Assembly: GCA_015039365.1 (NCBI GenBank)
Contig: WION01000119.1
Location: 80,670-144,669, forward strand
DNA from: Amanita rubescens
Lineage: Eukaryota; Basidiomycota; Agaricomycetes; Agaricales; Amanitaceae
Direction: 5' to 3'
DNA length: 64,000 bases
Shown: positions 4,888 through 53,400 of the stretch, one piece after another
Layout of the letters: the number at the start of each line of letters is the position of its first letter
Numbering within the stretch: the first letter of the stretch is position 1
Made by a program: the position numbers and the translations under genes
Notes under the pieces: model-generated
What the model was told of the DNA's origin: nothing
Seen by the model: only the letters and a program-made list of their open reading frames with translations
Databases searched by the model: none

Positions 4888-7800
4888 ATGTCGGCAGAGG
4901 ATCCACCTCAGGTAGTGAATACTGGTATCTTTGCTGGATACCAGAATGTTGTTGTTATGGATAGTCAATATAAAGAGGTATTGCATTTCAGCATTTGGTG
5001 ACGTGGATTTTGTCAATAATGATGACTCATAGATCAACTACTATCTTGCAGACTATTCCAATATTGATCTACCTCCTTTACCTCCTATCAAACATTCTAG
5101 TACTTTCTTTACAGGCCAAGATAAGTACTTGCAGAAGCTGAAGGATTACTTTGCCCCCAATATGGGAGGCCAAAGAAATTTTGTCCTTTTGCATGGTTTA
5201 GGTGGCATTGGAAAGACACAGATTTGCCTTAAATTCATTGAAGAAAACCCTGATTTGTGAGTAGTTTACACATTAGTATAGTAATTCAATATAACAGACC
5301 TATTCAAGGTTCTCTGACATATTCTGGATTGATTCTTCTTCACAGAAAAGTATTGAATTTGCACTCACACAGATATCTTTAACCTACAGTACTTCACTAA
5401 ATGGTAGACCCTCACCCAGATCTGCTCTTGATTGGATCTCCCAAACACCCAACTTTTTGATGGTGTATGATGGAGCAGATGAACATTACTCAGTAGTTGA
5501 GAACTTCCTCCCACCAGGAAATGGAGGAAATGTTCTGATAACAAGTAGGAATATTGGATTGAAGAGGTTGAGCAACAACTCAACAGAGATTCATGGCATG
5601 GAAGATAAAGATGCTATGTCCTTGCTTTTGAAGTCAGCCATGCTTGATGACACAGACAATGATATCTATAATCTGGCCCAGCAGCTTGTTTTGCAATTGG
5701 ATGGAATCCCTCTTGCCATTGACCAAGCAGGAGCATACATGCATTTCTGTGAGTGCAGCATTGATAGCTATTTGGGGTTGTATGCAAGATACAAGAATGA
5801 GTTAATGAGGGATACACCAGGATTTAAGGGTGCTTCAGATTATGGGACATCTACATATGGGACATGGGACATTTCTATGAAAAACATGGAGATTATGACT
5901 GCAAGCAAAGTTGGGGGAGAAGCTGAGGCAGCACACAGTGCAATCAGGCTATTAAGGATTTTTGCCTTTTTGAATCATGAGAACATACCTGAAGAATTAT
6001 TCAAGAATGCTGCAAAAAATTACATACAGAGAAATGTTGAAGTAAAAAAGTCTGATTTTTTGTTATCAATAAGCCAACTGAGCAATCAGACTTTATTCCT
6101 AAGTGAAGATGGGGAATGGGATAGAATGCAGTTTCTGAATGGAATAAAAGTTTTACACTCTTTTTCTTTGGTCAAAACTGTTAACCACTTGTATTCAATG
6201 CACATTCTGGTTAACACCTGGAGTAGGAGTTGTGTGCCAAAAACAGATGTTGAGAAATACTATTGCAGTGCAAGAGCACTGCTATCCTGTTCAATAGTCT
6301 TCAACTGGGAAATTGACAACTATGAATTCTGCAAATTACTTGCTCCACACATTAGGTCAAATTGCTTCCATGGATTGGAATTAAAATTGAACAGCAAGTA
6401 CTATGATGATGAATATGAGCAATTTGCACTAGTATTCCATCACATTGGGAGCTGGGATGAGCAGGAAAAATTGTTACATGTTATAATTCATCAAAGAACA
6501 ACAAAGCTTGGATCAGATGACCCATCCACTCTCACCAGCATGGACAATTTGGCATCAACATACAGGAATCAGGGAAGGTGGGATGAGGCAGGGAAGCTTC
6601 AAATGGATGTGATGAATTCAAGAAAAACAAAGCTTGGATCAGACCACCCAGACACTCTCACCAGCATGGCCAATTTGGCATCAACATACAGGAATCAGGG
6701 AAGGTGGGATGAAGCAGAGAAGCTTGAGATGGATGTGATGAATGCATTCAAAACAAAATTTGGATCAGACCACACATCCACTCTCACCAGCATGGCAAAT
6801 TTGGCATCAACATACTGGAATCAGGGAAGGTGGGATGAAGCAGAGAAGCTTGACATGGATGTGATGAATGCAAGAAAAACAAAGCTTGGATCAGACCACC
6901 CAGACACTCTCACCAGCATGGCCAATTTGGCATCAACATACTGTAATCAGGGAAGGTGGGATGAAGCAGAGAAGCTTCAGATGGGTGTGATGAATGCAAG
7001 AAAAACAAAGCTTGGATCAGACCACCCAGACACTCTCACCAGCATGGCAAATTTAGCATCAACATACAGGAATCAGGGAAGGTGGGATGAGGGAGAGGAG
7101 CTTGATATGGATGTGGTGGATGCATTCAAAACAAAGCTTGGATCAGACCACCCAGACACTCTCACCAGCATGGCCAATTTGGCATCAACGTACTGGAGTC
7201 AGGGAAGGTGGGATGAGGCAGAGAAGCTTGAGATGGATGTGATGAATACAACAAAAACAAAGCTTGGATCAGACCACCCAGACACTCTCACCAGCATGGC
7301 CAATTTGGCATCAACATACTGGAATCAGGGAAGGTGGGATGAGGCAGAGAAGCTTGAGATGAATGTGATGAATGCAAGAAAAACAAAGCTTGGATCAGAC
7401 CACCCAGACACTCTCACCAGCATGGCCAATTTGGCATCAACATACTGGAATCAGGGAAGGTGGGATGAAGCAGAAAAGCTTCAGATGGATGTGATGAATG
7501 CAAGAAAAACAAAATTTGGATCAGACCACCCAGACACTCTCACCAACATGGCCAATTTGGCATCAACATACTGGAGTCAGGGAAGGTGGGATGAAGCAGA
7601 GAAGCTTGAGATGAATGTGATGAATGCAAGAAAAACAAAGCTTGGATCAGACCACCCATCCACTCTCACCAACATGGCCAATTTGGCATCAAGATACAAG
7701 AATCAGGGAAGGTGGGATGAGGCAGAGAAGCTTGAGATGGATGTGATGAATGCAAGAAAAACAAGGCTTGGATCAGACCACCCAGACACTCTCACCAGCA

Positions 7801-9412
7801 TGGCCAATTTGGCATCAACATATTGGAGTCAGGGAAGGTGGGATGAGGCAGAGAAGCTTGAGATGGATGTGATGAATGCAAGAAAAACAAAGCTTGGATC
7901 AGACCACCCAGACACTCTCATCAGCATGGCCAATTTGGCATCAACATACTGGAATCAGGGAAGGTGGGATGAAGCACAGAAGCTTCAGATGGATGTGATG
8001 AATGTAAGAAAAGCACAGCTTGGATCAGACCACCCAGACACTCTCACCAGCATGGCCAATTTGGCATCAACATACTGGAGTCAGGGAAGGTGTGATGAGG
8101 CAGAGAAGCTTCAGATGGATGTGATGAATTCAAGAAAAACAAAGCTTGGATCAGACCACCCAGACACTCTCACCGGCATGGCCAATTTGGCATCAACATA
8201 CTGGAATCAGGGAAGGTGGGATGAAGCAGAGAAGCTTCAGATGGATGTGATGAACACAAGAAAAACAAAGCTTGGATCAGACCACCCAGACACTCTCACC
8301 AGCATGGCCAATTTGGCATCAACATACTGGAATCAGGGAAGGTGGGATGAGGCAGAGAAGCTTCAGATGGATGTGATGAATGCAAGAAAAACAAAGCTTG
8401 GATCAGACCACCCAGACACTCTCACCAGCATGGCCAATTTGGCATCAATGTACTGGAGTCAGGGAAGGTGGGATGAGGCAGAGAAGCTTGAGATGGATGT
8501 GATGAATGCAACAAAAACAAAGCTTGGATCAGACCACCCAGACACTCTCACCAGCATGGCCAATTTGGCATCAACATACTGGAGTCAGGGAAGGTGGGAT
8601 GAAGCAGAGAAGCTTCAGATGGATGTGATGAATGTATTCAAAACAGAGCTTGGATCAGACCACCCAGACACTCTCACCAGCATGGCCAATTTGGCATCAA
8701 CATACAGGAATCAGGAAAGGTGGGATGAGGCAGAGAAGCTTGAGATGGATGTGATGAATACATTCAAAACAAAGCTTGGATCAGACCACCCAGACACTCT
8801 CACCAGCATGGCCAATTTGGCAGTGACATATATGGATCAAGGAGGGCCAAATGAGGCAGAGACACTGGAGTTGGATATGATAAGTGCCCCAAAAGTGAAG
8901 TCTGAATCAGACCATCTGGAAGCAACTGTCACTACTAATACATGTATCACTAACCAACCCTCTTCCAATAAGGATCTTCAGACAGTTCAGCAAGATGATA
9001 GCCAACCTGAAAATATGGTAAGTTAAGTAAGCTGACCTTGGCTTTTGTCTTATCACTTCTTTTGCTTAGCCAATCAAGCCCCTCAACCAGCTAGAGATCC
9101 AACAAGCTGAAGAGCAAGAGCCCATAGTAGGTGACATGGACATTTGCCTAACTTTTGCTAGATCTGGCTTTTGCATAGATCTCCAGTACCCATGACTATT
9201 TCAAGGAGGTTCCACATCAGGTGCAAGAGCAGAGTCAGGATGTGGTGCCCATGGTATTCTACCCTTGCACACCAATTCCCACTTTACATCTAATGTGTTC
9301 TTTGATGTAGCCTTCCAGTTCTGGTGAACAACAACTTGAGCACATTGCAATGCAAACTAAGAATCAGTTTATTGAGGGACTCAAGGGCATATGGAGAAAA
9401 CTGAAGTGTTGA
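4888..9412 (+). CDS. NB-ARC / tetratricopeptide-repeat (NLR-like) protein, six exons
   Basis: Predicted STAND-type NTPase of the fungal NLR class, likely a cytosolic sensor. Exons 4888-4977, 5033-5256, 5309-9017, 9070-9126, 9179-9253 and 9311-9412 join in frame to about 1418 residues; all introns are GT..AG. The N-terminus is a short hydrophobic motif (NTGIFAGYQNVVVMDSQYKE). Next come Walker A (HGLGGIGKT), Walker B (FLMVYDGAD), a sensor-like GNVLITSRN and a GxP-type motif (LDGIPLAIDQAG). A winged-helix-like region and an MHILV motif (MHD position) precede 19 TPR-like repeats of 42 residues. Three tiny 3' exons encode a Gln/Glu-rich tail ending GLKGIWRKLKC. Opening the frame at an internal ATG (5457) would lose Walker A, so 4888 is preferred; the paralogue at 44309 has the matching start. 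No conventional effector domain is visible; ligand unknown. Confidence 0.85.
6495..8888 (+). repeat. Nineteen tandem 126-bp units encoding 42-residue TPR-like repeats
   Basis: Each unit encodes a block of the type KTKLGSDHPDTLTSMANLAS followed by TYxxQGRWDEAEKL and xMDVMNx. This is the TPR_10/TPR_12 signature seen in kinesin-light-chain-like repeats. Most units differ at only a few codons: the residue after TY (W, R, C, K), S/N next to it, E/Q in the xMDVMN block, and the first two residues of each unit (RK, FK, TK). The last unit is degenerate. Near identity at the DNA level implies recent unit amplification or gene conversion. Confidence 0.9.
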
Positions 9413-17208: not shown

Positions 17209-20200
17209 ACTGGTGATGGAAGATACTCATACAACTAGCATGCTTCTATCAAGTAGGCAAATATATGCATTTCTATCTCATCCCAAAATTTGACTAGTGT
17301 ATTTGGATATAGATGACTCAGAGAAACATGTCAAAATGCTCAAAGATCAATACCTATGTCCCCATTTTCGTATCCTTATCATAGGAAGGGCCAATGCTGG
17401 CAAAACAACTGTCCTTGAGAAGATTTGTGGTGTAGCAAGGGGAGCAAAGCCTATCATATATGACAAGGATGGTAAGCCTGCCTCAAATTTCTGCATTTAA
17501 ATTCTTAGTTCTTTGTAGGTAAAGAGCTTTTACCCACTGGGTCTCATTTGATTTCATCAGTTGAGGTAAGTTGACTTGTGACATCTCAACATACTTTATT
17601 CATATCCAGTTACATATCACCAGAGAGGCCTTCATGATATTGAGCATCAAATTACATTTGATGGAAGTAATTTTATCTTCCATGACTCTCAAGGTTTTGA
17701 ATCTGGTGCAACTGAGGAATTGGAGATTGTTTGGGATTTCATTGAAAAGAGGTCTGGAGAAACTGAGATAAAGAATCAGTTGCATGCAATTTGGTATATG
17801 TATTCCTTGTGCTTTTAACATCACATGCCTGATCTAGCTTATTGTACATGTAGGTACTGCATCCCCATGGATGGCCCTCGTCCCATTCTACCTGCAGAGC
17901 TTGCATTTTTTACAAAAGGGACTGGCAAAGGTAAATATTTATTGCTCAAATTGGCTTCTACCTGCCCCAAAATCTATGATGCCTGTGTTAACAAATTCAT
18001 ATAACCTTGCAGTTCCTTTGGTGGTTGTGTTTACCAAATTTGATGGTCAAATCATTAATGAATATGTTACCTTAATGAATCCATACATTGAAGATAAGTG
18101 GGAAATGGCTAGGAACAATGCTGAACATACTTTTCAAGAGGTTTACCTTCCCAAAGTCTTAGATGCCAAATATCCTCCTAAGGCATATGTGCGATTGGAA
18201 GGTGAGAAGGCAAACATTCCATCTCTCTAGTAACATAAATAATATTGCTTGAAAAATAGACATGGATTTACCAGAGAAGCACTGTCCTGAATTAGCTCAA
18301 CAGACTGCTGATGCAATTGATGATGAAAGCTTACATCATTTGTTTGTCTCAACACAGAAGAATAACCTTGATCTCTGTGTTAAGGCTGCATTTCAGTGAG
18401 GTTCATATTAAAGCATTTCTTTTCATGCACTGACCATTCTCAGAGCCATCATCAATAAGAGTAATTTCACATGGGAAGACACTGCTATTGTTGTTCTTAG
18501 CAAATTTCCACATTACTGGGTATGCATAGTTTGTTAAATATCTGCACAGCAATGTAGAAAGAATTGAATTGGGAACAGTTCCGCAGGCAGGCAGGTGTCC
18601 AATTTTATATGACATGCTAAACATTCACAAAATATGCAACAGCATGCAAGTAACACTGTGATTTATTTGCATGTGCCCTAATTAGCCTTGTGCTAGATGT
18701 CTGCTACAGAAATGAAAGAAATTCAGGTGTATTCTATCACATACCATTTGTACAAAGTTTAATGATTGGATGGCAGTGGGTGAGCAAAATTCAACCACTC
18801 ATGTAGATACATATGGTGCCTTGTCTCATGACCATCAGTTTGTGAGTGATGCTTCACTTGGTTATGTAAATGTCTTGTCCCATCATCAACAGGAAGTGAG
18901 TGTACCACTTAATTCCTGACAGGGAGTCCCATGGCTCATGATGTGACCAACAGACAGTGAGTAAATCTACCCATTTAAACAATGTTGTCCTGCTACATTC
19001 TATAATTAAAAGGCAGTCAGTGTCACAATATTTTCCTGACCTTGGGACTCACACTGCATCACATTCTATCACATCAAGAAAGTGAGTGACATTAACATTT
19101 TTTTAATGTCTACCCTGATCCAATAAGCAACAGAATGTTTGTGACATTATACTTACATATATTTGAACAAATCTTGTTTAATTACATCTTAACAATAGCG
19201 AGTAAGTGACAGTGTCCATCCAACTACTGATATTCATTCTAAGTCACTCAATACAGGTAGTGAGTGAAGACCTACATTGTCTTCTGGGCAGTCTCTTCAC
19301 ACTGAGTACATGAACAATAGAAAGTGAGTGGTGCACTGTTCACTCCTATGCTAGGATCATTAATTATGTCCTTATGTCACAGTCAGTAAGTAATCCCATC
19401 ATGCACTTTGGCAGGCATCTTATAACAGCTTGTGGTAATATGAACAACAGTATGTGAGTGAACTTGCACCTTTGTCTAAAACAAACTCTCAGGAAATATT
19501 AATTATGCAATCAGTCTGTGGGTAACATTGGGCATTTGTCTGAAAGAAAGCTTCATCACCCCTTCTTCCTACAATGGACAGAATGCAAGTGACATTTATT
19601 TCTCTAGAAGGCAACCTCAACACATGATAATTAATAGCGTGTGATTAACATTGCACTATTTTCTGAAAGCAATCTTATGACATTTGTTCCTATGTCTACA
19701 GAGTGTGGGTGATATAAACAGCAATCATCACAGCTCATTTCTTATGGTCAACAGCATGTCAGTGGCATTACATGTTTTTCTGATACTTAACCTCCTTCCT
19801 ATGGTTAACAGGCAGTGAGTGACATTTAACAGTTGTCTGGAACAAATATTCATTGTATTTCTTTATGACCAACAGTTTGTCAGTTATGTTACACAATTTT
19901 CTGCAATCCAGTCTCATCACTGGTTTTCTATCACCAACAGGCAGTGAGTGAATATTTTGAAATTTTGATGGCAGTCTCATCACACAATTTCACATCCCCG
20001 ATAGTTTGTGAGTGATATTTCATATTTTCTGAAAGGTGATGACATATTACAACTGTTATCTCCAACAGGGAGTTCAGTCTGCACAGTTTTTTGGATGGTT
20101 GTCACACTTATCACATTGTTTTCTATTGCCTTCAGTATGTAAGTGAACATATTGCTAGTAAGAGGTGATTTCACCACATCCTTTACCACCACCAGTTTGT

Positions 20201-21605
20201 CAGTGATGCTATACATTTTTCTGGAAAATTGTTTCATCACCTTGTCCTACAATCAACAGAGTGTGAGTGACAATGAGCATCTTCCAGAAAAGTAGTCTCA
20301 GAATGCAACAAACAGGGAGTGAGTATCATCATGTGAAATTCTCAAGGGAGTCTTATCACCTAGCAATCACATGATCACTTCTTCTATGATCAACAGGCTG
20401 TAAGGGAATTACACATTTCTAAAAAGCAATTTTATTACATATTTTTCTTTGACAAATAGCATCATGTCAGTGCACTTGCATGATTTTCCTCAACTTAGGA
20501 AGCCTCATCATGTGTTTTTTCTTGGCCAACAGGAAGTGGGTTCAGTGTATTGGCTGCTGCATTTCTCTGAAATATGGCATATTCTCCTATTTCCAACAGG
20601 TGATTCTGCACTTTGAATGGCAGACTGGTTTATCACATCTTCTTCTAGCATGACATACTGCAAGTGTGTGACATTACACTTCTCATAAATTCAATTTCAT
20701 AGCACATTCTCATCCCCAACAGCATGTATGCAATATTTTACCTTTGTTCTACAGTTGATTACATTTTGTCCATCTCCAACAGCAAGTAAGTGATGTTTAA
20801 AGGGAAGGAAGTCACATCACATCTTGTACAATTCACAGTTTGTGAGTGATATTGTGCAATTTTCAGTGTGGAGATTCCCATGATCAATAGGGAGTGAGTG
20901 GGACCAAACATCTTAAGCTATGGAAACCCATGGCATTTCTAATGACAACAGAAAGTGATAAGCCTCATTACATTCCAATCCATCAATGCTTGATGTATGT
21001 ATCATTTGAATGTAACAGGAAGTGAGCAGCATGATACAATTGTCTTTCTGTGCTTTCCCCCCTTTTTACTGCTGCCCATAGATTGTGAGATTGCATTTTA
21101 GTTTGTCTAATTCCTAAACTTTTGTGTCTTCCCAGGTGAGTGATATCAACATAGGATTTATTAATACTGTGACATATATGCTAGTTTGTAAGTCCACTTC
21201 TGCATTTGAAACCTGATTCTTTCTTATAATATCAAAGGGACCACTTTTATCTTTGTTTGGAGATGTTTCAAACAATTTTTCAATAACTGTATGCATTACT
21301 CTTGCCCATGTGATAAATAACTGATATCAGCCAATTTGAAGCCCACAGCCTGCCAAGTTTTAATTTGTAAAAGTTGCTTCTCTTCACTAACTCTCTTCAT
21401 GCTAATGCATTCAAGCAATGAATATTATTGCTAAGCTATCATTTTGGATTGGCAAACCATTCCGGGAATCAATCATGGAGGCTTTCAACAAATTTAAGAG
21501 AGAGGACTATGTGCAGAAACTGAAAATGGCCATTACTTTGCAGGCCATAAATTTGAGCAAGGAAGACCTAGTTGTATTTATGTGCCAGTATGTGGCCCAC
21601 ATTTG
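17209..21605 (+). CDS. P-loop GTPase (AIG1/GIMAP-like G domain) gene leading into a micro-exon array, left copy
   Basis: G-domain exons: 17209-17471, 17519-17565, 17624-17793, 17854-17930, 18013-18201, 18260-18395 and 18444-18519. Motifs: G1 GRANAGKT, G3 HDSQG, G4 TKFD. A conserved segment (YCIPMDGPRPILPAELAFFT) and VYLPKVLDAKYPPKAYVRLE follow, then a hydrophobic stretch (DTAIVVLSKFPHYW). Next is the micro-exon array (18643-21084). Conserved downstream blocks contain GPLLSLFGDVSNNFSITVCI (about 21237) and a last exon (21418-21605) ending LSKEDLVVFMCQYVAHI. The frame is broken near 17270: relative to the right arm one base is lost and one gained, leaving an in-frame TGA unless an extra intron is used. 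Frame closure around 18579-18780 and 21135-21237 is unresolved. Probably a damaged or alternative copy of the right-arm gene. Confidence 0.6.
18643..21084 (+). other. Array of about 38 putative 3-nt micro-exons, left arm
   Basis: About every 64 bp (range about 50-90) the same signal recurs: a 3' splice site (mostly CAACAG, also AATAG, TCAG, CATCAAG), then three bases, then a 5' splice site (GTGAGTG, GTAAGT, GTCAGT, GTGGGT). Triplets in order begin CAT, TGG, TTT, GAA, ACA, GCA, AAA, AAT, CGA, GTA, AAA, TCA, TAT, TCT and end CAA, TTT, GGA, AAA, GAA, ATT. One unit has six bases (CATCAT, near 20460). Two units near 20600-20660 are damaged. None of the triplets is a stop codon. First examples: CAT 18643-18645, TGG 18777-18779, TTT 18839-18841, GAA 18893-18895, ACA 18954-18956; last ATT 21082-21084. 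DNA between sites is poorly conserved from unit to unit. Confidence 0.8.
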
Positions 21606-21895
21606 ATGGTAAGTCCTTCAGTTTCAATTCATAAAACACCCATGCACATTTGAGGCAGGATGTCATTCCACACTCCAAGTTGGCAGTGCTTCCACATGAA
21701 ACTTATTTTGATTTACCTGGATATACATAGTTCATCTTTTGTCACTACTGTTTTCCTCCAGTGTACTTATAATGCCCCCAGTTTCTTACTTCTGCTGTCC
21801 AAATTTCTTCCATAGAAGTATCTTTAGTATGCAGAATCTGATCATATCATGATGGAATGTTTCTGTAGTAGTGTAGCCAAGTCATGGGCTGCATG

Positions 21896-23143: not shown

Positions 23144-26100
23144 TCAAATGTGGGTCACATGCTGGCACATAAATACAACTAAGTCTTCTTTGCTCAAATC
23201 TATGGCCTGCAAAGTAATGGCCATTTTCAGTTTCTGCACATAGCCCTCTCTCTTAAATTTGTCAAAAGCCTCCATGACTGATTCCCGGAATGGTTTGCCA
23301 ATCCAAAATGATAGCTTAGCAATAATATTCATTGCTTGAATGCATTAGCATGAAGAGAGTTAGTGAAGAGAAGCAACTTTTACAAATTAAAACTTGGCAG
23401 GCTGTGGGCTTCAAATTGTGCTGATATCAGTTATTTATCAGATGGGAAAGAGTAATGCATACAGTTATTGAAAATTTGTGTGGAACATCTCCAAACAAAG
23501 ATAAAAGTGGACCCTTTTATTTTATAAAAATCAGATTTCAAATGCAGAAGTGGACTTCTGACTTACAAACTAGCATATATATGTCACAGTATTAATAAAT
23601 CTCATGCTGATATCACTCACCTGGGAAGACACAAAAGCTCAGGAATTAGACAAACTGAAAAGCAATCTTACAATCTATGGGTAGCAGTAAAAATGGGGAA
23701 AGCACAGAAAGACACTTGTATGCTGCTCACTTCCTGTTACATTCAAATAATACATCAAGCATTGATGGATTGGAATATAATGAGGCTCATGCTCAAAAGT
23801 TTTAGTGCCACTCACTTTCTGTTGTCATTAGAAGTATCATGAATTTTGGTAGCATAAAGATGTTCAGTCTCACTCACTCCCTGTTGGTCATGGGAATCCC
23901 CATACATAAAATTGCACAATATCACTCACAAACTTTCAATTGTATAAGATGTGACTCAGATGTGACTTCCTTCCCTTAAATATCACTTACTTCCTGTTGG
24001 AGATGGACAGAATGTAATTAACTTTACAACAAAGGTAAAATATCACACACATGCTGTTGATGATGAGAATGTGCCATAAAATTGAATTTTATGAGATGTG
24101 CAATGCCACGCACTCGCTGTTGGGCATGCTAGGAGAAGATGTGATGAACAAGTCTGCCATTCAAAGTGCAGGATGACACTCACTCCCTATTGATTATGAA
24201 ACAGATATAATGTGACTCCTGTTCACAAATGTGTTACAATATAACCCACTACCTTTTGAAGACCGGAAATGATGTGATAAGACTGCCTTTTAATAATAAG
24301 GCTACTCACTGGCTGTTGTGCATTGCAGAATATACCATGAGGTTGCTTTTCAGAATGATGTGCATTGCCACCCACAAACTGTTGGTGAAGGAAAAGAAAT
24401 ATATTAGGGTTTGAAGAAATTGTGTCACATGTATACAATGTGACTCACATTTCCATTCTGTTGGTTAGGAAAAATGTCAAAAGACTACACCTCAGGGGAT
24501 TGTAATCTTATTCCACTCACTGCTGGCTGTTGGTCATAGGAAAATATGCCATAAGACTGTATTTCAGAGAAATGCACAATACACAGAACTCACTTCCTGT
24601 TGGCCAAGAAAATAACACATGGTGAGGCTTCCTTGAAGAAAATCATGCAAGTACACTAACTCCATGCTATTTGTCAAAGAAAGATTGTATGTAATAAATT
24701 TGGTTTTTAGAAAATGTATTGAATTCCCTTACTGCCTGTTGGTCATAGAAGAAGTTATCACATGATTGCTAGGTGATAAGACACCCTTGAGAATTTTGCA
24801 TGATGATACTCACTCCCTGTTTATTACATTCTGAGATTGCTTTTCTGGAAGATGCTCGTTGCCACCCACACGCTGTTGATTGTAGGGCAAGGTGATGAAA
24901 CAGTTTTCCAGAAAAATGTATAGCATCACTAACAAACTGGTAGCAGCAAAGGATGTGGTAAAGTCACCTCTTACTAGCAATATGTTCACTTACATACTGT
25001 AGGCAGTAGAAAACAATGTGATAAGTGTGAAGACCAGAAAACTGTGCAGACTCACTCCCTATTGATGATAACAGAGTAATATGTGATCAGGCTACCTTTC
25101 AGAAAATATGAAATGTCACTCACAAACTATTGGGGATGTGAAATTGTGTGATGAGACTGTGATTAAAAACTTCAAAACTGTTCACTCACTGCCTGTTGGT
25201 GATAGAAAAACCAGTGATGAAACTGAATTGCAGAAAATTGTAACTGACAAACTGTTGGCCACAGAGAAATACAATGAATATTTGTTCCAGACAACTGTTA
25301 AATGTCACTCACATACTGTTAACCAAAGGAAGAATATAAGTATCAGAAAAATCTGTAGTAATGTCACTGACATGCTGTTGACCATATAAATTGAGCTGTG
25401 ATGATAGCAATCAGAGAAATGTCTATATCACTCACATCCTGTTAGATGCAGAAACAAATGTCATAAGATTGCTTTCAGAAAATAGTGCAATGTCAATCAC
25501 TTCCTATTTGTCATGGAAAATTGTCATGATGTGATGAGGTTGCCTTCTAGAGAGATAAATGTCACTTGCATGCTATCCATTGTGAGGAGAAGGGGTGATG
25601 AAGCTTTCTTTCAGACAAATGTCTAATGTTACCCACAGACTGATTATGTGATAGATATTTCCTTGGAGTTTGTTTCAGAAAAAGGTGCAAGTTCACTCAC
25701 ATACTGTTGTTCATATGACCACAAGCTGTTATAAGATACCTGCCAAAGTGGATTACTTACTGACTGTGTGACATAAGGACATGATAAATCCTAGCATAGG
25801 AGTGGACAGTACTGTCACTCCACTCACTTTCTTTTGTTCATGTAGTCAGTGTGAAGAGACTACCAAGACAATGTAGGTCTTCACTCACCGCCTGTTTTAT
25901 TGAGTGCTTAGAATGAATATCAGTAGTTGGATGGACACTGTCACTTACTCGCTATTGTTAAGATGTAATTAAACAAGATTTGTTCAAATATAAGTATAAT
26001 GTCACAAACATTCTGTTGCTTATTGGATCAGGGTAGACATTAAAAAAATGTTAATGTCACTCACTTTCTTGATGTGATAGAATGTGATGCAGTGTGAGTC

Positions 26101-27932
26101 CCAAGGTCAGGAAAATATTGTGACACTGACTGCCTTTTAATTATAGAATGTAGCAGGACAACATTGTTTAAATGGGTAGATTTACTCACTGTCTGTTGGT
26201 CACATCATGAGCCATGGGACTCCCTGTCAGGAATTAAGTGGTACACTCACTTCCTGTTGATGATGGGACAAGACATTTACATAACCAAGTGAAGCATCAC
26301 TCACAAACTGATGGTCATGAGACAAGGCACCATATGTATGTATCTACATGAGTGGTTGAATTTTGCTCACCCACTGCCATCCAATCATTAAACTTTGTAC
26401 AAATGGTATGTGATAGAATACACCTGAATTTCTTTCATTTCTGTAGCAGACATCTAGCACAAGGCTAATTAGGGCACATGCAAATAAATCACAGTGTTAC
26501 TTGCATGCTGTTGCATATTTTGTGAATATTTAGCATGTCATATAAAATTGGACACCTGCCTGCCTGCGGAACTGTTCCCAGTTCAATTCCTTCCACATTG
26601 CTGTGCAGATATTTAACAAACTATGCATACCCAGTAATGTGGAAATTTGCTAAGAACAACAATAGCAGTGTCTTCCCATGTGAAATTACTCTTATTGATG
26701 ACTGCTCTGAGAATGGTCAGTGCATGAAAAGAAATGCTTTAATATGAACCTTACTGAAATGCAGCTTTAACACAGAGATCAAGGTTATTCTTCTGTGTTG
26801 AGACAAACAAATGATGTAAGCTTTCATCATCAATTGCATCAGCAGTCTGTTGAGCTAATTCAGGACAGTGCTTCTCTGGTAAATCCATGTCTATTTTTCA
26901 AGCAATATTATTGATGTTACTAGAGAGATGGAATGCTTGCCTTCTCACCTTCCAATCGCACATATGCCTTAGGAGGATATTTGGCATCTAAGACTTTGGG
27001 AAGGTAAACCTCTTGAAAAGTGTGTTCAGCATTGTTCCTAGCCATTTCCCACTTATCTTCAATGTATGGATCCATTAAGGTAACATATTCATTAATGATT
27101 TGACCATCAAATTTGGTAAACACAACCACCAAAGGAACTGCAAGGTTATATGAATTTGTTAACACACTGGCATCATAGATTTTGGGGCAGGTAGAAGCCA
27201 ATTTGAGCAATAAATATTTACCTTTGCCAGTCCCTTTTGTAAAAAATGCAAGCTCTGCAGGTAGAATGGGACGAGGGCCATCCATGGGGATGCAGTACCT
27301 ACATGTACAATAAGCCAGATCAGGAATGTGATGTTAAAAGCACAAGGAATATACCAAATTGCATGCAACTGATTCTTTATCTCAGTTTCTCCAGACCTCT
27401 TTTCAATGAAGTCCCAAACAATCTCCAATTCCTCAGTTGAACCGGATTCAAAACCTTGAGAGTCATGGAAGATAAAATTACTTCCATCAAATGTGATTTG
27501 ATGCTCAATATCATGAAGGCCTCTCTGGTGATATGTAACCGGATATGAATAAAGTATGTTGAGATGTTACAAGTCAACTTACCTCAATTGATGAAATCAA
27601 ATGAGACCCAGTGGGTAAAAGCTCTTTACCTACAAAGAACTAAGAATTTAAAAGCAGAAATTTGAGGCAGGCCCACCATCCTTGTCATATATGATAGGCT
27701 TTGTTCCCCTTGCTACACCACAAATCTTCTCAAGGATGGTTGTTTTGCCAGCATTGGCCCTTCCTATGACAAGGATACGAAAATGGGGACATAAGTATTG
27801 ATCTTTGAGCATTCTGACATGTTTCTCTGAGTCATCTATATCCAAATACACAGTCAAATTTTGGGGAGGGAGTAGAAATGCATATATTTGCCTACTTGAT
27901 AGAAGCATGCTAGTTGTATGAGTATCTTCCAT
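23144..27932 (-). CDS. P-loop GTPase gene leading into a micro-exon array, right copy
   Basis: The first exon (27932-27677) is open from ATG, unlike the left copy: MEDTHTTSMLLSSRQ, then YLDIDDSEKHVRMLKDQYLC and G1 GRANAGKT. Exon 2 is 27629-27583. The following exons mirror the left arm with G3 DSQG, G4 TKFD and VYLPKVLDAKYPPKAYVRLE. The first donor is GTGGGC where the left copy has GTAAGC, so splicing may be weaker. After the G domain comes the micro-exon array (26507-23672), then conserved blocks with PLLSLFGDVPHKFSITVCIT and a last exon (23332-23144) differing from the left copy at six mostly conservative residues. The family is the AIG1/GIMAP-like GTPases common in Agaricomycetes; the function is not established. 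The hydrophobic C-terminal blocks suggest membrane association (inference). Confidence 0.7.
23672..26507 (-). other. Array of about 44 putative micro-exons (3, 6 or 9 nt), right arm
   Basis: On the plus strand the signal reads as CACTCAC-NNN-CTGTTG and variants, the reverse complement of CAACAG|NNN|GTGAGTG. Forty-one units have exactly three bases, two have six (CATGGA, CCAGCA) and one has nine (AATGGAAAT). Read in gene order, about 26 triplets are identical to the left arm; most others differ by a codon change, with the length kept. First triplet CAT at 26507-26505, last ATT at 23674-23672. At the last unit the left donor is GTGAG and the right is GTAAG: different bases, both functional donors. 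Confidence 0.8.
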
Positions 27933-43790: not shown

Positions 43791-46700
43791 AACCTTCCAT
43801 CGCTAGTTGAGCGCTAAGGCCTGAGGCCTGACAGTCAACGCACCTCTGAGTTTGCTCTCCACGTGCATCCAACAGGTCTACATCTCCGAGACGCCTGACC
43901 ATCTCATTAATGTTCACCATCAATCCTTCACATGGTCGCTTTCAAGACCGACTGGTGGGAGGCGATATTGAAGACGGCGCGAGCACTGGCGAGAGTTGCA
44001 GCACTGGAAGTGTGATGCCGTGACATGGCCACACTCCTGCAGGCCAAAATACCGAGTCTAAGATAAGTATTCAAGTGACATGGGACGACCAAACGCTCTT
44101 GCTCACCGAAGCACCTTTCATGTCGATTGTTTGTTGTTTATCTACTGAGTCTATGCCGAGCTTTTTCCACGAAGTTCCATGTGACATGTGACATGTTACA
44201 TCACATCTTTTCTTCTTGACCATCATATAGTTACATCATCCTCATTTTGGTCTATTCCAAGCATATTTCCCAATTCCATATATAATTCTTTCATAGACCA
44301 TCATCACCATGTCAGATCCACCTCAGGTAGTAAATACTGGTGTATTTGCTGGATGCTGGAACTTTTATATTAGGAATGCCCAATTTATAGAGGTATTGAA
44401 TTTCAGCATTTTTTCACCTAGATCTTGTCAATAATGAAGACTCATAGATCAACTACTATCTTGAAGACCCCTCCAATGTTGATCTACTTCCTTTACCCCC
44501 TATCAAACATTCTAGTACTTTATTTACAGGCCAAGATAAGTACTTGAAGAAGCTGAAGGATCACTTTCCCTCTAATATTGGAGGCCAAAGAAATTTTGTC
44601 CTTTTGCATGGTTTAGGTGGCATTGGCAAGACTCAGATTTGCCTGAAATTCATTGAAGAAAATCCTGATTTGTGAGCATTTACTCATTAGTATAGTAATT
44701 CAAGATAACTGACTATTCAAGGTTCTCTGACATATTCTGGATTGATGCTTCTTCAGAGGAAAGTGTTGAATTTGTACTCACACAAATGTCCTCAACCTAC
44801 AGTACTTCACCAGATGGTAGACCCTCAGCCAGATCTGCTCTTGATTGGATTTCTCAAAGGCCCAACTTTTTGATGGTGTATGATGGAGCAGATGGACATT
44901 ACTCAGTAGTTGAGAACTTCCTTCCACCAGGAAATGGAGGAAATGTTATGATGACAAGTAGGAATATTGGGTTGAAGAGGCTTGCATTGAGCAAGAACTC
45001 AATGGAGATTCATGAAATGGAAGATGAAGATGCTATTTCCTTGCTTTTGAAGGCAGCCATGCTTCATGACACAGATGATGATATTGATAGTCTGGCCCAG
45101 CAGCTTGTGTTGCAATTGGACAGAATCCCTCTTGCCATTGACCAAGCAGGGGCATATATGCTTTCCTGTGGTTGCAGTATTGATGGTTATGTGGAATTGT
45201 ACACAGGATACAAGAACAAGTTAATGAGGGATCCAGGATTTAAGGGTGCCTCAGATTATGGAACATCTACATATGGGACATGGGACATTTCCATGAAAAA
45301 AATGGAGGATATAGCTGCAAAGGATAACTCAGAGGAATCTCTTGGAGCACAAAGTGCCATCAAGCTCTTGAAGATCTTTGCTTTCTTAGATCATGCTAAT
45401 ATACCACAAGAATTATTCAAAAGTGCTGCTGAGAACTACACAAAAAGACACATTGAGGATGATGTGTATCTTCCATCATCTTTGATCCTGCTGGATGATG
45501 CAACTGTATTCATGGGAAAAGATGGGGAGTGGGACATAATGAAGTTTCTATATGGCATCCAGGTTTTACTTTCATTCTCATTTTTGAGATGTCATAACCA
45601 CTGGTATTCCATGCACCTACTAGTAAATGCCTGGAGTAGGAACTGCATACCAAAAACAGAAGTAACTGATTACTATTACAGAGCAAGAGCACTGTTGTCC
45701 TGTTCAATCACTCTTGACTGGGATGCTGATAATTATGAATTCTGTCAATCACTGGCACCACACATTAGGTCAAACATGTTGCATGGATTGGAATTGAATT
45801 TGAACAGCAAGTACTATGATGATGAATATATAAGATTTGCACTTGTATTTCATAATACTGGGAGCTGGGATGAGGAAGAACAATTGTTACATGTTTCAGT
45901 TGATCAAAGAAAGACAAGACTTGGATTGGACCACTTGCACACTCTTACCAGCATGGCTGAATTGGCATCAACATACTTGAATCAGGGAAGGTGGGATGAG
46001 GCAGAGAAACTTGAGATGGATGTAATGAATGCATACAAAATAAAGCTTGGATCAGACCACAAAGACACTCTCACCATCATGGGCAATTTAGCATCAACAT
46101 ACAGGTACCAGGGAAGGTGGGATGAGGCAGAGAAGCTTGAGATGGATGTAATAAATGGATTCAAAACAAAGCTTGGTTCAGGCCACTCATACACTCTCAC
46201 CAGCATGTCCAATTTGGCAGCAACATACAGGAATCAGGGAAGATGGGATGAGGCAGAGAAGCTTCAGATGGATGCGATGAATGGATTGAAAACAAAGCTT
46301 GGATCAGACCACCCAAGCACTCTCACCAGCATGGGCCATTTGGCAGACACATACAGGGTTCAGGGAAGGTTGAATGAGGCAGAAAAGCTTCAGATGGATG
46401 TGATGAATGCAACAGAGCAAAGCTGGGATCAGACCACCCAGGCAGTCTCAGGAGCATGGCTAATTTGGCAGCAACACACTGTGATCAGGGAAGGTGGGAT
46501 GAGGCAGAGAAGCTTCAGATGGATGTGATGAATGCAAGGAAAACCAAGTTTGGATCAGACCACCCAGAAACTCTTGGTAGCATGGGCCATTTGGCAGCAA
46601 CATACAGGAGTCAGGGAAGATGGGATGAGGCAGAGAAACTTCAGATTATTGTGTTGAATGCAACAAAAACAAAGTTTGGATCTGACCACCCAGACACTCT

Positions 46701-47935
46701 TACCACCATGGCCCAATTGGCAGCAACATACTGCAATCAGGGAAGGTGGGATGAGGCAGAGAAGCTTTGGATGGATGTGATGAATGCATTGAAAACAAAG
46801 CTTGGATCAGACCACCCTAACACCCTCACCAGCATGGGCCATTTGGCAGCAACATACAGGAGCCAGGGAAGATGGGATGAGGCAGAAAAGCTTCAGATGG
46901 ATGTGATGAATGCATTCAAAACAAAGCTTGGATCAGACCACCGATCCACTCTTGGCAGCATGGGCATTTTGGCAGCAACATACTGTAATCAGGGAAGGTG
47001 GGATGAGGCAGAGAAGCTTCAGATAGATGTGATGAATGGATTCAAAACAAAGCTTGGATTGGACCATCCATCCACTCTCAGGAGCATGGCTAATTTGGCA
47101 GCAACATACAGGAGTCAAAGAAGGTGGGATGAGGCAGAGAAGCTTCAGATGGATGTGGTGAATGCATTGAAAGCAAAGCTTGGATCAGACCACCTAGAGA
47201 CCCTCACCAGTATGTCCAATTTGGCATCAACATACAGGAATCAGGGAAGATGGGATGAGGCAGAGAAGCTTCAGATAGATGTGATGAATGGATTCAAAAC
47301 AAAGCTTGGATCAGACCACCAATCCACTCTTGGCAGCATGAAGCTGCTGACAGAGATGATGAATGCAAGAAAAGATAGGCTTGGGTTCAGCCACCCAGAT
47401 ACTCTTCCCAATATGATATCCAACTTGGAAGCAACATGTAGGAATGAAGGAAGGTTGAATGAAGCAGAGGAACTGGAGTTGGATTTGATAAATGCCAAAA
47501 CAGTGAAGCCTAAATCAGACCATCTCAATGCAACTCTTGCTAGTACTGCTAACCAACCCTCTTCCAATCAAGTTCTTCAGACAGCTCAGCATGATCATAA
47601 TCAATCTGAAAGCTTGGTAAATTAAGCAAGCTGACCTTGGCTTTATATCTAACCACTTCTTTGCTTAGCCAAAGCCCCTTGACCAGCTAGAGATCCAGGA
47701 AGTTGAAGTGCAAGTCTCCATAGTAAGTGACATGCACATTGACTTAAATTTTAATTGTCATACTAAATCTGGATTTTGCACAGATATCTGATGGATTTGG
47801 TGAACAACAACTTGAAGACCTTGCAATACAACCTAAGAATAAGTTTATTCAGGGACTCAAAGGCATATGGGGAAATCTGAAGTGTTGCTGAGTATGCATA
47901 ACTTAGTATTTTTTAACAGTATGGCAGTGTATCTA
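43791..47935 (+). repeat. Segmental duplication, copy B (pairs with 4425-9460)
   Basis: Starts with CAACCTTCCATCGCTAGTTG, matching 4424 onward, and follows copy A through promoter, exons and introns to just past the stop codon. It is shorter mainly because it carries fewer TPR units and lacks one small 3' exon. Confidence 0.75.
44309..47891 (+). pseudogene. NB-ARC/TPR (NLR-like) paralogue with a frameshift in the repeat region
   Basis: Exons 44309-44392, 44448-44671, 44722-47616, 47669-47722 and 47784-47891 mirror the gene at 4888. Motifs are kept: N-terminal NTGVFAGCWNFYIRNAQFIE, Walker A HGLGGIGKT, Walker B FLMVYDGAD, GNVMMTSRN, IPLAIDQAG and MHLLV. In the fifth TPR unit (about 46412-46418) one base is missing relative to its neighbours, so the frame runs to a stop at 46526-46528, giving a truncated product with about four repeats. 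The remaining eight or so repeats stay open in the other frame to 47625. About 13 units are present, more diverged than in copy A; unit 12 is truncated. One 25-codon 3' exon of copy A is absent. The shift could be genuine or a consensus error. Confidence 0.75.
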
Positions 47936-49141: not shown

Positions 49142-50467
49142 ATGCCTTACACACCGACGGAAGCGTTGATAGGAGCGTGCATAGGGTTATTGGCAGCGCT
49201 GATAGGATCGCTCGCCCCGGCCGCAGTACGAACGCTCTGGGAGGCGTTAACCCCAGGAGCCCAACGAAATGCGGGACACGGAGTGGCCAGAGCGATAGGA
49301 GAGATAAGGGAGGCGTTCAGAGAACCGCCCAAACCGCCCAGACCTCAGATGAAGATCGATCTACCAGAAGCATATGAAGGCAAACCAGAAAAAATAGCGC
49401 ACTGGTTAAGATCGATGAAGGCGTACTTTTCATTGACGGAAGTACTCAACAACAGTCAAATGATTGCGGTCGCCCTCCAAAGAATAAAGGGAGGAACGGC
49501 AAACCGAGCGGAGAACTGGGCGGGAGTCAAGTTACAGGAATTCATGGATTTCGCAGACGAAGTACAAAGTACACCACGAGCGAACGAATACACATGGGCG
49601 CAATTAAGGACGGGAGTAGAAGCAAGGGAAGCAGTGATAGGAGTGGTGTCACCGATGGGAGAAGTAATGATAGCCCCAATAGCGGCGGAACTCGGAATAG
49701 CAGCGGTCACGCACGCGCCACCATTTGATAGCTGGCACGACTTCGAGCGGAAAGCGCTGGCCTTCTTCATGACGACGGAAACAAGGGACGAAGCGATCAG
49801 ACATCTAAGGGAGTTGAAACAGGGGAAGCGACCGGTAGAAGATTACATCATCGACTTCAAGAGTTGGGCTCAACTCACGGACTTTAACGAAATAGCCCTA
49901 ATTGCCCAATTCAAAGGAGGATTGAACCCACCGTTGGGAATAAAGATAGTAGAGAATGGAGCACCGGGAGACGGAGCGACAGCGGGAGATCTACAGTTAT
50001 GGTATGAAAGAGCAACGGCGTTGGATAAGGCGTGGAGAGACGGACAAAAACTTTATGGAGTAATGCGGACAGATAGACCGGTATTCCGACCGCGATACAC
50101 GGGGAACCCTGTACCGGCGCCACAACACACGCCACCAACAGCGCCACAAACTACGGCTCCCACACCACAAATACAACGACCCCAACCTGTGGCGTCAGGG
50201 TCAGGGACAGATCCGAACGCGATGATGATCGATAGAAGGAGAGGACCAGGGAGGTGTTTCAACTGCGGAAAGATAGGGCACCTGTCAAGGGACTGTTGGG
50301 CACCAAGGAAAAAGAGAGAAGAGGTGAGGGAAATGACGTGGCAGGAAAGGATCGGAAAGGCAACGGAGCAAGAGAAAGTGGAAATAGCGGCATTGATGGG
50401 ATTCCAAACGGAACAAACCGACCAAACGACGAGAGCGGAAGGGGCGGATTTTCCAAACAACCAGTGA
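49142..50467 (+). CDS. gag: Gag polyprotein of the Gypsy element
   Basis: Frame of 441 codons. Residues about 60-300 form the capsid-like region (LPEAYEGKPEKIAHWLRSMK; DFERKALAFFMTTETRDEAI; LRELKQGKRPVEDYIIDFKS), typical of the retrotrans_gag family. A Pro/Thr-rich linker follows, then one zinc knuckle, CFNCGKIGHLSRDC (CX2CX4HX4C), for RNA binding. The protein assembles the virus-like particle. Its 3' end overlaps the pol frame by about 214 bp. Confidence 0.9.
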   Translation: MPYTPTEALIGACIGLLAALIGSLAPAAVRTLWEALTPGAQRNAGHGVARAIGEIREAFREPPKPPRPQMKIDLPEAYEGKPEKIAHWLRSMKAYFSLTEVLNNSQMIAVALQRIKGGTANRAENWAGVKLQEFMDFADEVQSTPRANEYTWAQLRTGVEAREAVIGVVSPMGEVMIAPIAAELGIAAVTHAPPFDSWHDFERKALAFFMTTETRDEAIRHLRELKQGKRPVEDYIIDFKSWAQLTDFNEIALIAQFKGGLNPPLGIKIVENGAPGDGATAGDLQLWYERATALDKAWRDGQKLYGVMRTDRPVFRPRYTGNPVPAPQHTPPTAPQTTAPTPQIQRPQPVASGSGTDPNAMMIDRRRGPGRCFNCGKIGHLSRDCWAPRKKREEVREMTWQERIGKATEQEKVEIAALMGFQTEQTDQTTRAEGADFPNNQ

Positions 50468-53400
50468 AAGCGCCTCCTAAGGCACTGGTTGAAGAATGTG
50501 TTACTAAGCCACTCGATGTAATATATACGGATTCAAAATTAAATATTGATGACATCCTATATGAATTGAGAGGACATGAACACAAATGGAGGAATGAACC
50601 CGTAAGAGCGACGAACAGAAAATTGAAAACGTGGCAAGGGCCGTGGATGGTGAGAAGGATGTGGGACCAAGATGAAAAAATAGCGATAGAAAGTCTGAAA
50701 CAATGGGTGCATCGAACCCGGAGTGACGAAGCGAACGGAGAAACGGTAAAGGCTATAAATGAGATGACGGAAGAAGGAGCGTTGTGGTGTCTTGACAATT
50801 TAAAAATGAAACCGAGGTACATACGAGGGAAGGGAAAAAATCAGATGGTAATAGAAGGGGTGATGACTACGCTGGATACACACGAACGGAACAGAGTTGA
50901 CATTCTTATCGATTCGGGATGCACTGGGTCTTGTATAAATCAAAGTTTTGTAAAGAAACACAAAATCAATACACGACAACTAGACCGACCCATCCCCGTC
51001 TTCAACGCTGACGGCACACCCAACTTAGGGGGAACGTTAAAAGAGGTGGTACAGTTGAAACTACGGATAGGGACGCACGAAGAGGTGTTCGAATTCGGCG
51101 TTTCAACGCTTGGAAAAACCGACGTATTCTTAGGACACGATTGGTTGAGATATCACAATCCTAGCGTGAACTGGAAGGAAAACTCACTCCGGATGGTAAA
51201 TTGCCCAGGCCATTGCTACGTGGCCGAGGACGATTACGATACTGAAGGTGAGGAGGCCGGCGAAGATAAGGCGATCGGTGGACATGAATGGGAAGAGGGA
51301 GATAGATTGTTGGCAGTAATGAGAGACGAAGATGAAGGAGTGTGGGTGAGAGCGCATGAAACCACGGCAACCAAAATAGCAGCGGCGAATCAAAAAAGTC
51401 GCACATGGGAAGAAATGATCCCCGCCCACTATTTGAGTCACCGAAAGGTTTTTGAAAAGAAGATGTTTGACGAACTACCGACGCGCGGTCCTTGGGATCA
51501 CGCCATTGAATTAATACCAGGATCCAAACCGTTAGACTGCAAAATATACCCACTCAATCGACATGAACAGGAACAGTTGGACGAATTCTTGAAAGAGAAT
51601 TTAGACACGGGACGAATCAGATCGAGCAAATCTCCAATGGCGTCACCCTTCTTCTTTATAAAGAAAAAAGATGGGAAGCTGAGACCAGTACAGGACTACC
51701 GGAAATTAAACGAGATGACAATAAAAAACCGTTACCCACTCCCGTTGATTTCGGAATTAATCGATCGTCTCAGTCATGCCAAGATATTCTCGAAAATGGA
51801 TATACGATGGGGATATAATAACGTGAGGATAAAGGAGGGAGACGAGTGGAAGGCAGCGTTCAGGACAAATAGAGGATTGTTCGAACCATTAGTAATGTTC
51901 TTCGGATTAACGAATTCACCGGCGACATTCCAAACTATGATGAATGACATGTTCAGGGAAGAGATAGCGGAAGGATGGGTGGTGATTTACATGGACGATA
52001 TACTTGTATTTTCAGATAACAAGGAAGCGCACCAACGACATGTTGAACGAATCCTAGAAAAACTGGAACACCACAAGTTATCGTTAAAAGCAGATAAATG
52101 TTGGTTCGATCAAGACACGATTGAATTCTTAGGACTGGTTATATCACACGATTCGATACGTATGGATAAAGCGAAAGTGAAGGCAATACTTGATTGGCCA
52201 CGACCCAAGAACAAAAGAGAATTACAACAGTTTCTGGGTTTTGTCAACTTCTATCGACGATTTGTACGAGGATTCGCGAAAATAGCCAAAGCCCTTACGA
52301 AGTTGACAGGGAAAGAAGAATGGATGTGGACGGTGTTACAGGAAGAGGCGTTTCAAGGGCTAAAGATGAGAATAGGGGAGGAAGTGGTATTGGCAATACC
52401 GGCTGATAAGGGGCAATACCGAGTGGAAACGGATGCGTCGGACTTCGCAATGGGAGCGGTGCTATCTCAACAGCAGTCGGACGGAACTTGGAGACCAGTC
52501 GCGTTTATTTCGAAGTCGCTAAACCCAACGGAAAGAAATTATGAAGTTTACGACAAGGAATTGTTGGCGATAATGCACGCATTGTATGAATGGTCGCACT
52601 ACCTAAAGGGGACAGAGGAAGTAATTGAGATATTAACGGATCATCAAAATCTCACCTACTTCCGTAAATCTCAAAATATAAATCGACGACAAGCACGATG
52701 GGTATTGGACTTGCAAGAATACAATTTTACGTTGAAACATCGACCGGGCAAGGCCAACGCGAAGGCAGACGCGTTATCTAGGAGAGCGGACTTTGATAAA
52801 GGGGAAACAGACAATGAAGGAACGATAGTGTTAAAAGAGGAGATGTTTATACGAGCGATAAATGAGAATGGAGGACTACCGGAAATAGAAAAACAAATAA
52901 AAAAGATAACAAAACGACAATGGGAGGAGAAAGTAAAAAAGGCAATAGAACAGAGAGAAGAAGGATGGAAAATACAGGAGAACGGGATGGTGACATGGCG
53001 AGAACGGGTGTACGTACCAGTAGTGAAAAAATTACGAGAGGAAGTAATGGCCGTGCATCACTCTTGGGGACATTCAGGAGTTGATAAAACAGTCGAATTA
53101 ATATTACGAAACTATTGGTGGCCGGGATTGAGAAAGGATGTAGAAGGATATGTGAAGGGGTGTCGGATCTGCCAAACGGTTAAACCGGATCGACAAAAGA
53201 GGGCAGCCCCGTTGAATCCAAACGAAGTTCCGCAAGGACCATGGCAAATAATATCGGTGGATATGATTGGTCCCTTGCCGGAATCGAAAGGATACGACGC
53301 GGTCTTAGTAGTAGTTGACAGATTCACGAAGAAAGCCTACTTCCTACCTACCAATACTACGTTGACAAGTAAAGGAACGGCGGTATTATTTAGGGATCAT

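Follow-up and report, generated by a model that had tools for sequence, protein, structure and literature searches.

Genes with many short, frame-neutral exons that encode variable proteins are known from schistosomes, where the exons of the micro-exon genes exceed a single codon in length; those genes bear no relation to the GTPases considered here. Among fungi, the closest described system occurs in truffles of the ascomycete genus Tuber. Passages available to us from three later articles citing Iotti 2012 state that the NACHT-ankyrin (nank) genes of Tuber melanosporum contain alternatively spliced, codon-sized (3-bp) microexons (PMC3689799, PMC4986451, and PMC10197012). Introner-like elements, as described in the part of the source consulted, represent many near-identical introns in one fungal genome (PMC4457414), and recursive splice sites and RS-exons are treated in another source available in part (PMC6224609). 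In this study, a window of 64,000 nucleotides from the basidiomycete Amanita rubescens (contig WION01000119.1, positions 80,670 to 144,669; coordinates given without a sequence name refer to this window) was analyzed. It holds two copies of a GTPase gene on opposite strands, A (+) and B (−), alignable over the gene, each featuring an array of acceptor-like site, base triplet, and donor-like site, repeated with putative introns of about 60 nt in between. As judged from the DNA alone, each array very probably represents coding sequence divided into single-codon exons, which would be joined in order by ordinary splicing.

The predicted structure resembles that of the truffle genes, as far as the latter are described in the passages mentioned, in that an enlarged family of fungal genes includes members with tens of 3-bp exons each. 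The host genes differ, being NACHT-ANK genes in the truffle and GTPase genes here, in a genome with Basidiomycota-type mating domains (Mating_N, PF12731, at three places above the cut-off). MATalpha (PF04769) gave no match in the genome, a result that does not show its absence. The sequence-only reading, which had treated only this stretch of DNA, knew of no array of this kind; the nank genes are a precedent, and what is new is the occurrence in another gene family, in a basidiomycete, and with roughly 12,600 units by extrapolation. Searches of the open-licence literature revealed no description of single-codon exon arrays, either for GTPase genes or for any basidiomycete.

The features of gene A are as follows.

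17216-18519, + strand: ordinary exons 1-8 with the P-loop GTPase domain, exons chosen by hand, open frame of 302 amino acids (17216-17252, 17298-17471, 17519-17565, 17624-17793, 17854-17930, 18013-18201, 18260-18395, and 18444-18519)
18643-21188, + strand: array A from the splice-chain search, about 37 putative micro-exons (35 of one codon, one of 6 nt, and one or two of zero length)
20592-20612, + strand: fused zero-length unit of array A, where B has six units and the A-type copy on contig C67 has one one-codon unit
21114-21155, + strand: CCAG/GTGAGTGA site, preceded by a pyrimidine tract and lying 300 nt upstream of the LSFW motif, conserved in 8 of 8 genes
21416-21606, + strand: last exon; its conserved reading (A)MNIIAKLSFWIGKPF..., which continues to the stop, points to 21416 as the probable start (phase 1)
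21436, + strand: alternative acceptor of the last exon, phase 0

Eight ordinary exons, rather than the seven counted previously, precede array A and end with KFPHYW in phase 0. Their product matched the Pfam family MMR_HSR1 (PF01926) at residues 37-122 with E=2.9e-4 and 21.4 bits, just under the curated cut-off of 21.9, and a sequence search of the PDB returned weak matches to EngA/Der GTPases, plus noise. The array of acceptor-NNN-donor units claimed for this gene proved to be real, with approximately 37 units compared to the about 38 proposed. In detail, the best chain comprises 38 exons, of which 35 measure 3 nt, one measures 6 nt (CATCAT, 20460), and two have zero length (20600 and 21136); it comprises 37 exons if the last exon starts at 21416. 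Accordingly, the statement that exactly three bases separate acceptor and donor holds for 35 units and fails for the 6-nt and zero-length ones, while the absence of stop codons among the triplets was borne out by the chain search. Two possible extra units lie off the best path, namely GGA at 20069 (donor gttcag) and TTT at 21185. The last exon reads LSFWIGKPFRES... up to the stop codon.

Gene B is organized correspondingly.

26631-27932, − strand: GTPase exons of gene B, an inverted copy of A, from the alignment with A
23567-26507, − strand: array B from the splice-chain search, 45 putative micro-exons (42 of 3 nt, two of 6 nt, and one of 9 nt), 49 codons
23144-23334, − strand: last exon of gene B, reading (A)MNIIAKLSFWIGKPFRESVMEAF...

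The predicted order of codons in gene B is HWFETAKNRAKSYSHEDHYFAFGYFRGAHGEPANGNFPVGRHEFGKEI, followed by VT or F and then the last exon; the least certain micro-exon is the last one (TTT, 23569). The chain of 45 exons remained unchanged when all exon lengths from 0 to 12 nt were allowed, and the same 45-exon chain was obtained for the counterpart of array B on contig C67. The inverted A/B pair recurs on contigs C67, C289, and C328 with a spacing of approximately 8.5-11.5 kb, and one copy is located on C689.

Chains were obtained by dynamic programming, demanding a GT or GCAAG donor and an AG acceptor. Early runs permitted only multiples of three (and zero) and provide no evidence on exon length, which is derived from the distances between strong sites, from genome-wide gap counts, and from chain runs with all lengths of 0-12 nt. 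Within the window, the motif [CT]AG-NNN-GT[AGC]AGT was found 21 times on the + strand, all between 18 and 21 kb, and 23 times on the − strand, all between 23 and 26 kb. For the window and 12 fetched loci, the distance between strong acceptor and donor, with all lengths of 0-59 allowed, was 3 nt in 147 cases and 6 and 9 nt in one case each, with no further value under 23 nt. Chain runs on ten arrays, in which every length except 3 was penalized equally, resulted in 482 exons of 3 nt; the remainder comprised seven 6-nt, three 9-nt, three 12-nt, and five zero-length exons, plus single exons of 2 and 4 nt. In a run limited to multiples of three, the chain began with a 12-nt exon in 8 cases, probably an artefact of a long first intron. 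Furthermore, a weight matrix, trained on the same sequences that it scored, detected 567 sites at a score of ≥6 compared to 7 after letter shuffling, and the chain search on the reverse strand or the shuffled letters of four arrays found nothing.

To the extent that they could be followed, the arrays belong to a large gene family; neither this genome-wide family nor the inverted copy B had been noticed in the sequence-only reading. The strict motif AACAG-NNN-GTGAGTGA occurs at 2614 sites of the 75.7-Mb genome (7 in the reversed control), and its variants with a gap of 4-5 nt at 11 sites (6 in the control). Since 125 of 604 single-codon exons in 12 arrays carry the strict motif, the genome would contain approximately 12,600 units, a rough extrapolation that presumes an equal strict-motif proportion in all other arrays and includes both haplotypes wherever the two are assembled. 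The 146 residues upstream of the array matched at least 202 places, the scoring having covered 150 of 447 candidates, and the last exon before the array matched 93 places. A chain was found at all 38 distinct GTPase places examined (38 fetched loci and the two window genes, minus L049 and L054, which are the window genes); these were picked by the strict motif or by best match to the window gene, do not represent a random sample, and include several near-identical ones. In eight nearly whole arrays outside the window (L033-L037 and L039-L041), predicted chains of 33-75 exons start at the GTPase exon, and a chain on C3 would comprise 88 exons. An independent scan of 30 loci detected at least eight units on the strand of the gene and at most one on the opposite strand.

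Arrays were seen beside GTPase exons with two exceptions. On C3, a second array of 36 units (L032, 1307-3636; C3:133306-135635) lies downstream of a GTPase last exon, without GTPase exons directly upstream. At L038 (approximately C1:764.5-764.8 kb, − strand), an array of 5-6 units, perhaps a remnant, was observed, and no GTPase exon was found in the fetched 10 kb. A GTPase match on C1 (571942) is without a strict-motif site nearby, the list of sites being whole for C1-C3. The 14 NACHT matches on C2 are all more than 30 kb away from any strict-motif site; the host gene is the GTPase and not a NACHT-ankyrin gene.

The introns between the triplets carry ordinary splice signals. Their median length is 61 nt, mostly ranging between 50 and 80 nt. 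Among 612 introns, which are mutually related and whose signal counts are therefore not independent, 351 have the donor GTGAGT, acceptors are CAG (487), TAG (99), or AAG (26), and a CTNAY branch-like site at −38 to −10 is present in 391 (shuffled mean 171). The introns of L041 are mostly 53 nt long and approximately 93% identical in the later part of the array (77% over all 72 units), whereas identity within the other 11 arrays averages 59-76%.

Several observations indicate that the triplets are under codon-like constraint. No stop was present among 987 codons at the 38 places, several of which are near-identical, and TAA or TGA occurred once among the 2614 strict-motif sites, where approximately 150 were expected from the base make-up (TAG not counted). 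The residues W-F stand near the chain start in 32 of 40 chains, and W-F-E in 28. In ten paralogs, selected for having W-F so that W and F were excluded, the following codons for E and Q were identical at 252 of 270 nt pairwise (E 135/135, Q 117/135), compared to 4123 of 5195 positions in the intron interiors in between and 74% for non-corresponding introns. Between array B and its counterpart on C67, 3 of 147 codon bases (altering two amino acids) and 6 of 405 splice-site bases are changed, as opposed to 86 of 2469 bases plus 21 gaps in the intron interiors. Near-absent stops, amino-acid motifs shared by paralogs, and exons that are kept while introns drift strongly support the single-codon reading first proposed for gene A, as far as DNA can do so.

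If the units function as proposed, each would consist of one codon, rarely two or three, and an intron with ordinary donor, branch-like, and acceptor signals, and serial intron-defined splicing would link the codons after the GTPase head and before the conserved last exon. Fungal introns of approximately 60 nt are recognized by intron definition and not across exons. With introns only three bases apart, adjacent spliceosomes would hardly fit, suggesting that the introns are removed one after another. The product would be a GTPase with an arm of approximately 30-90 residues that varies in length and sequence and often starts with [EHD]-W-F-E-Q, and the frame would be kept as the unit number changes.

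A number of findings weigh against this interpretation. One strict-motif TGA occurs elsewhere in the genome, and the A-type copy on C67 (L073, C67:57251), which is outside the count of 987 codons, also has a TGA in good splice context, where window A has CAA and B has GAA; this copy is probably decaying. Copy A itself, with its fused zero-length unit and one damaged unit, looks less intact. The third bases of 604 micro-exon codons from 12 arrays (A 0.487, T 0.424, G 0.088, C 0.002) include C in approximately 1 of 604 and little G, unlike the ordinary exons of the same gene (358 codons; C 0.17, G 0.198), which coding alone does not explain; leucine is encoded by CTT in 50 of 53 cases. Part of the G shortage may arise because a codon ending in AG creates a second acceptor beside the donor. 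Helical periodicity was clearly above shuffles in only one of nine arms, and an uninterrupted version of the arm, sought among the 93 matches to the last exon before the array, was not found. Several of these matches extend slightly beyond the exon end; those on C777 and C50, running through most of the query (54% identity, two stops), were taken for chance extension. Three arms scanned against Pfam yielded one weak match, DUF7347 at E=0.008, below the cut-off, and an Rfam scan of the window gave no match.

The join to the last exon constitutes a further difficulty. In all eight genes followed to the end (A, B, L035, L037, L039, L040, C8, and C3), the bases before LSFW encode a conserved in-frame hydrophobic stretch, reading (A)MNIIAK in A and B, AIIIIVK in L035, and AITIIAK in L039 and C8, preceded by an acceptor TTCAAG, TTACAG, or TTTAAG. 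This conserved start requires 3n+1 bases upstream in 8 of 8 genes, whereas the chains sum to 3n, and the phase-0 acceptor (AAG/CTA in A) has AG in just 6 of 8. The view that both exons flanking the array are in phase 0 was withdrawn after the last exon had been checked in these genes. A conserved CAG or TAG/GTRAGT site is located 265-307 nt before LSFW in all eight, and may either act as a recursive splice site of zero length or represent a 4-nt exon. In the latter case, an exon GTGA or GTAA, followed by a weak donor, would encode V and, joined to the two bases that follow, T, leaving the frame open in each gene tested; the chain score favors the zero-length reading wherever the site is used. 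The last join would need either the 4-nt exon or another acceptor for the frame to be kept.

Beside inclusion of all codons in order, the array might serve as a store of optional codons, real but alternatively spliced, by which one gene would give rise to many arm variants. This idea supplements the preferred explanation and is a serious possibility, if not quite an even one. Almost all micro-exons are multiples of three, so most subsets would stay in frame; skipping would excuse the TGA-bearing copy on C67; and the microexons of Tuber are stated to be alternatively spliced in the passages cited above (PMC3689799, PMC4986451, and PMC10197012). That the order and identity of the B codons are kept on C67 fits constitutive inclusion as well. 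Recursive splicing, in which the units would be ratchet points for the stepwise removal of one large intron and no codon would reach the mRNA, had also been considered in the sequence-only reading. The array units differ from recursive splice sites, as described in the part of the source available (PMC6224609), by holding a codon that is expected to stay in the message; ratchet sites are of zero length, whereas a unit here would leave three bases behind, and the triplets, with stops nearly absent, are conserved as amino acids. Zero-length AG/GT sites are present, and the conserved one found toward the end of the array in all eight genes resembles the described sites; as an account of the whole array, the ratchet is nevertheless highly improbable.

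At least as improbable is a tandem satellite with incidental splice-like motifs and no function in splicing. The relatedness of introns from different arrays (62-74% identity across six array pairs, compared to 53% for shuffled introns) would be expected of a satellite, but the arrays are located inside one gene family, indels occur in the introns and not in the triplets, and, between the B copies, splice sites are better conserved than the interiors of introns. Donors and acceptors also vary mostly among usable forms, although the chain search itself accepts nothing other than GT or GCAAG and AG. An introner burst, in which near-identical introns entered a formerly continuous stretch at each of its codon boundaries, is unlikely, though less so than the two preceding accounts. 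It can draw on L041, where, among 92 unit pairs with an identical downstream intron, the codon was the same in 18 and differed at one base in 20, at two in 33, and at three in 21. Insertion would be expected in other phases and spacings as well, whereas the spacing here is almost always one codon; micro-exon codon use is unlike that of ordinary exons; and a three-unit block (LQK) is repeated in L041 with its codon and intron variants together. Many near-identical introns were found in L041 only, the sole one of 12 arrays with such pairs, and, in contrast to introner-like elements as far as described (PMC4457414), the array introns were seen in one segment of one gene family, one codon apart.

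With regard to single-codon exons as coding sequence, comparison of arrays indicates that units are gained and lost and that codons change separately from introns. Six units of B correspond to the one fused, codon-free unit of A. Codons of units 0-8 are identical between A and B; in units 9-36, they differ at 17 of 84 bases, compared to 141 of 1080 in the 20+20 flanking bases, with three codons differing at all three bases and eight of nine changed codons altering the amino acid. One swap (GCA vs TAT) lies inside an otherwise nearly identical stretch. Since the L041 codons diverged while the introns stayed nearly identical, codons and introns appear to be replaced separately; the LQK block, repeated with its codons, points to unit duplication in addition. 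A tentative, rather doubtful extension is a codon-cassette system with one unit per arm amino acid, in-frame change of the unit number, and single-codon replacement leaving the flanking introns, with swaps possibly occurring through very short gene-conversion tracts between conserved splice sites. Should this apply, the arm would draw on an almost closed set of codons (about one codon each for several amino acids, with stops nearly absent) and evolve through amino-acid shuffling, not point mutation.

Elsewhere in the window, two genes with 126-bp (42-aa) repeats are located at 5457-9026 (18.5 copies at 93% match) and 44786-47625 (11 copies at 83%), which we take to resemble NB-ARC-TPR (STAND) proteins. 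At 49142-54567, gag-pol-like frames suggest a putative long terminal repeat (LTR) retrotransposon with a chromodomain-like end, as labeled from reading the translation.

Gene finders and RNA-seq aligners are expected to miss 3-nt exons, and the arm may consequently be absent from annotation. If transcribed and spliced as read, each message would join dozens of consecutive 3-nt exons and test the spliceosome with introns three bases apart, an extreme of gene splitting, should transcripts confirm it, with one reported precedent in the truffle. A role in intracellular recognition would suit a large GTPase family with a variable arm, considering its size and variability. The arrays would then represent a gene family in which a variable region is built and rearranged at the resolution of single amino acids.

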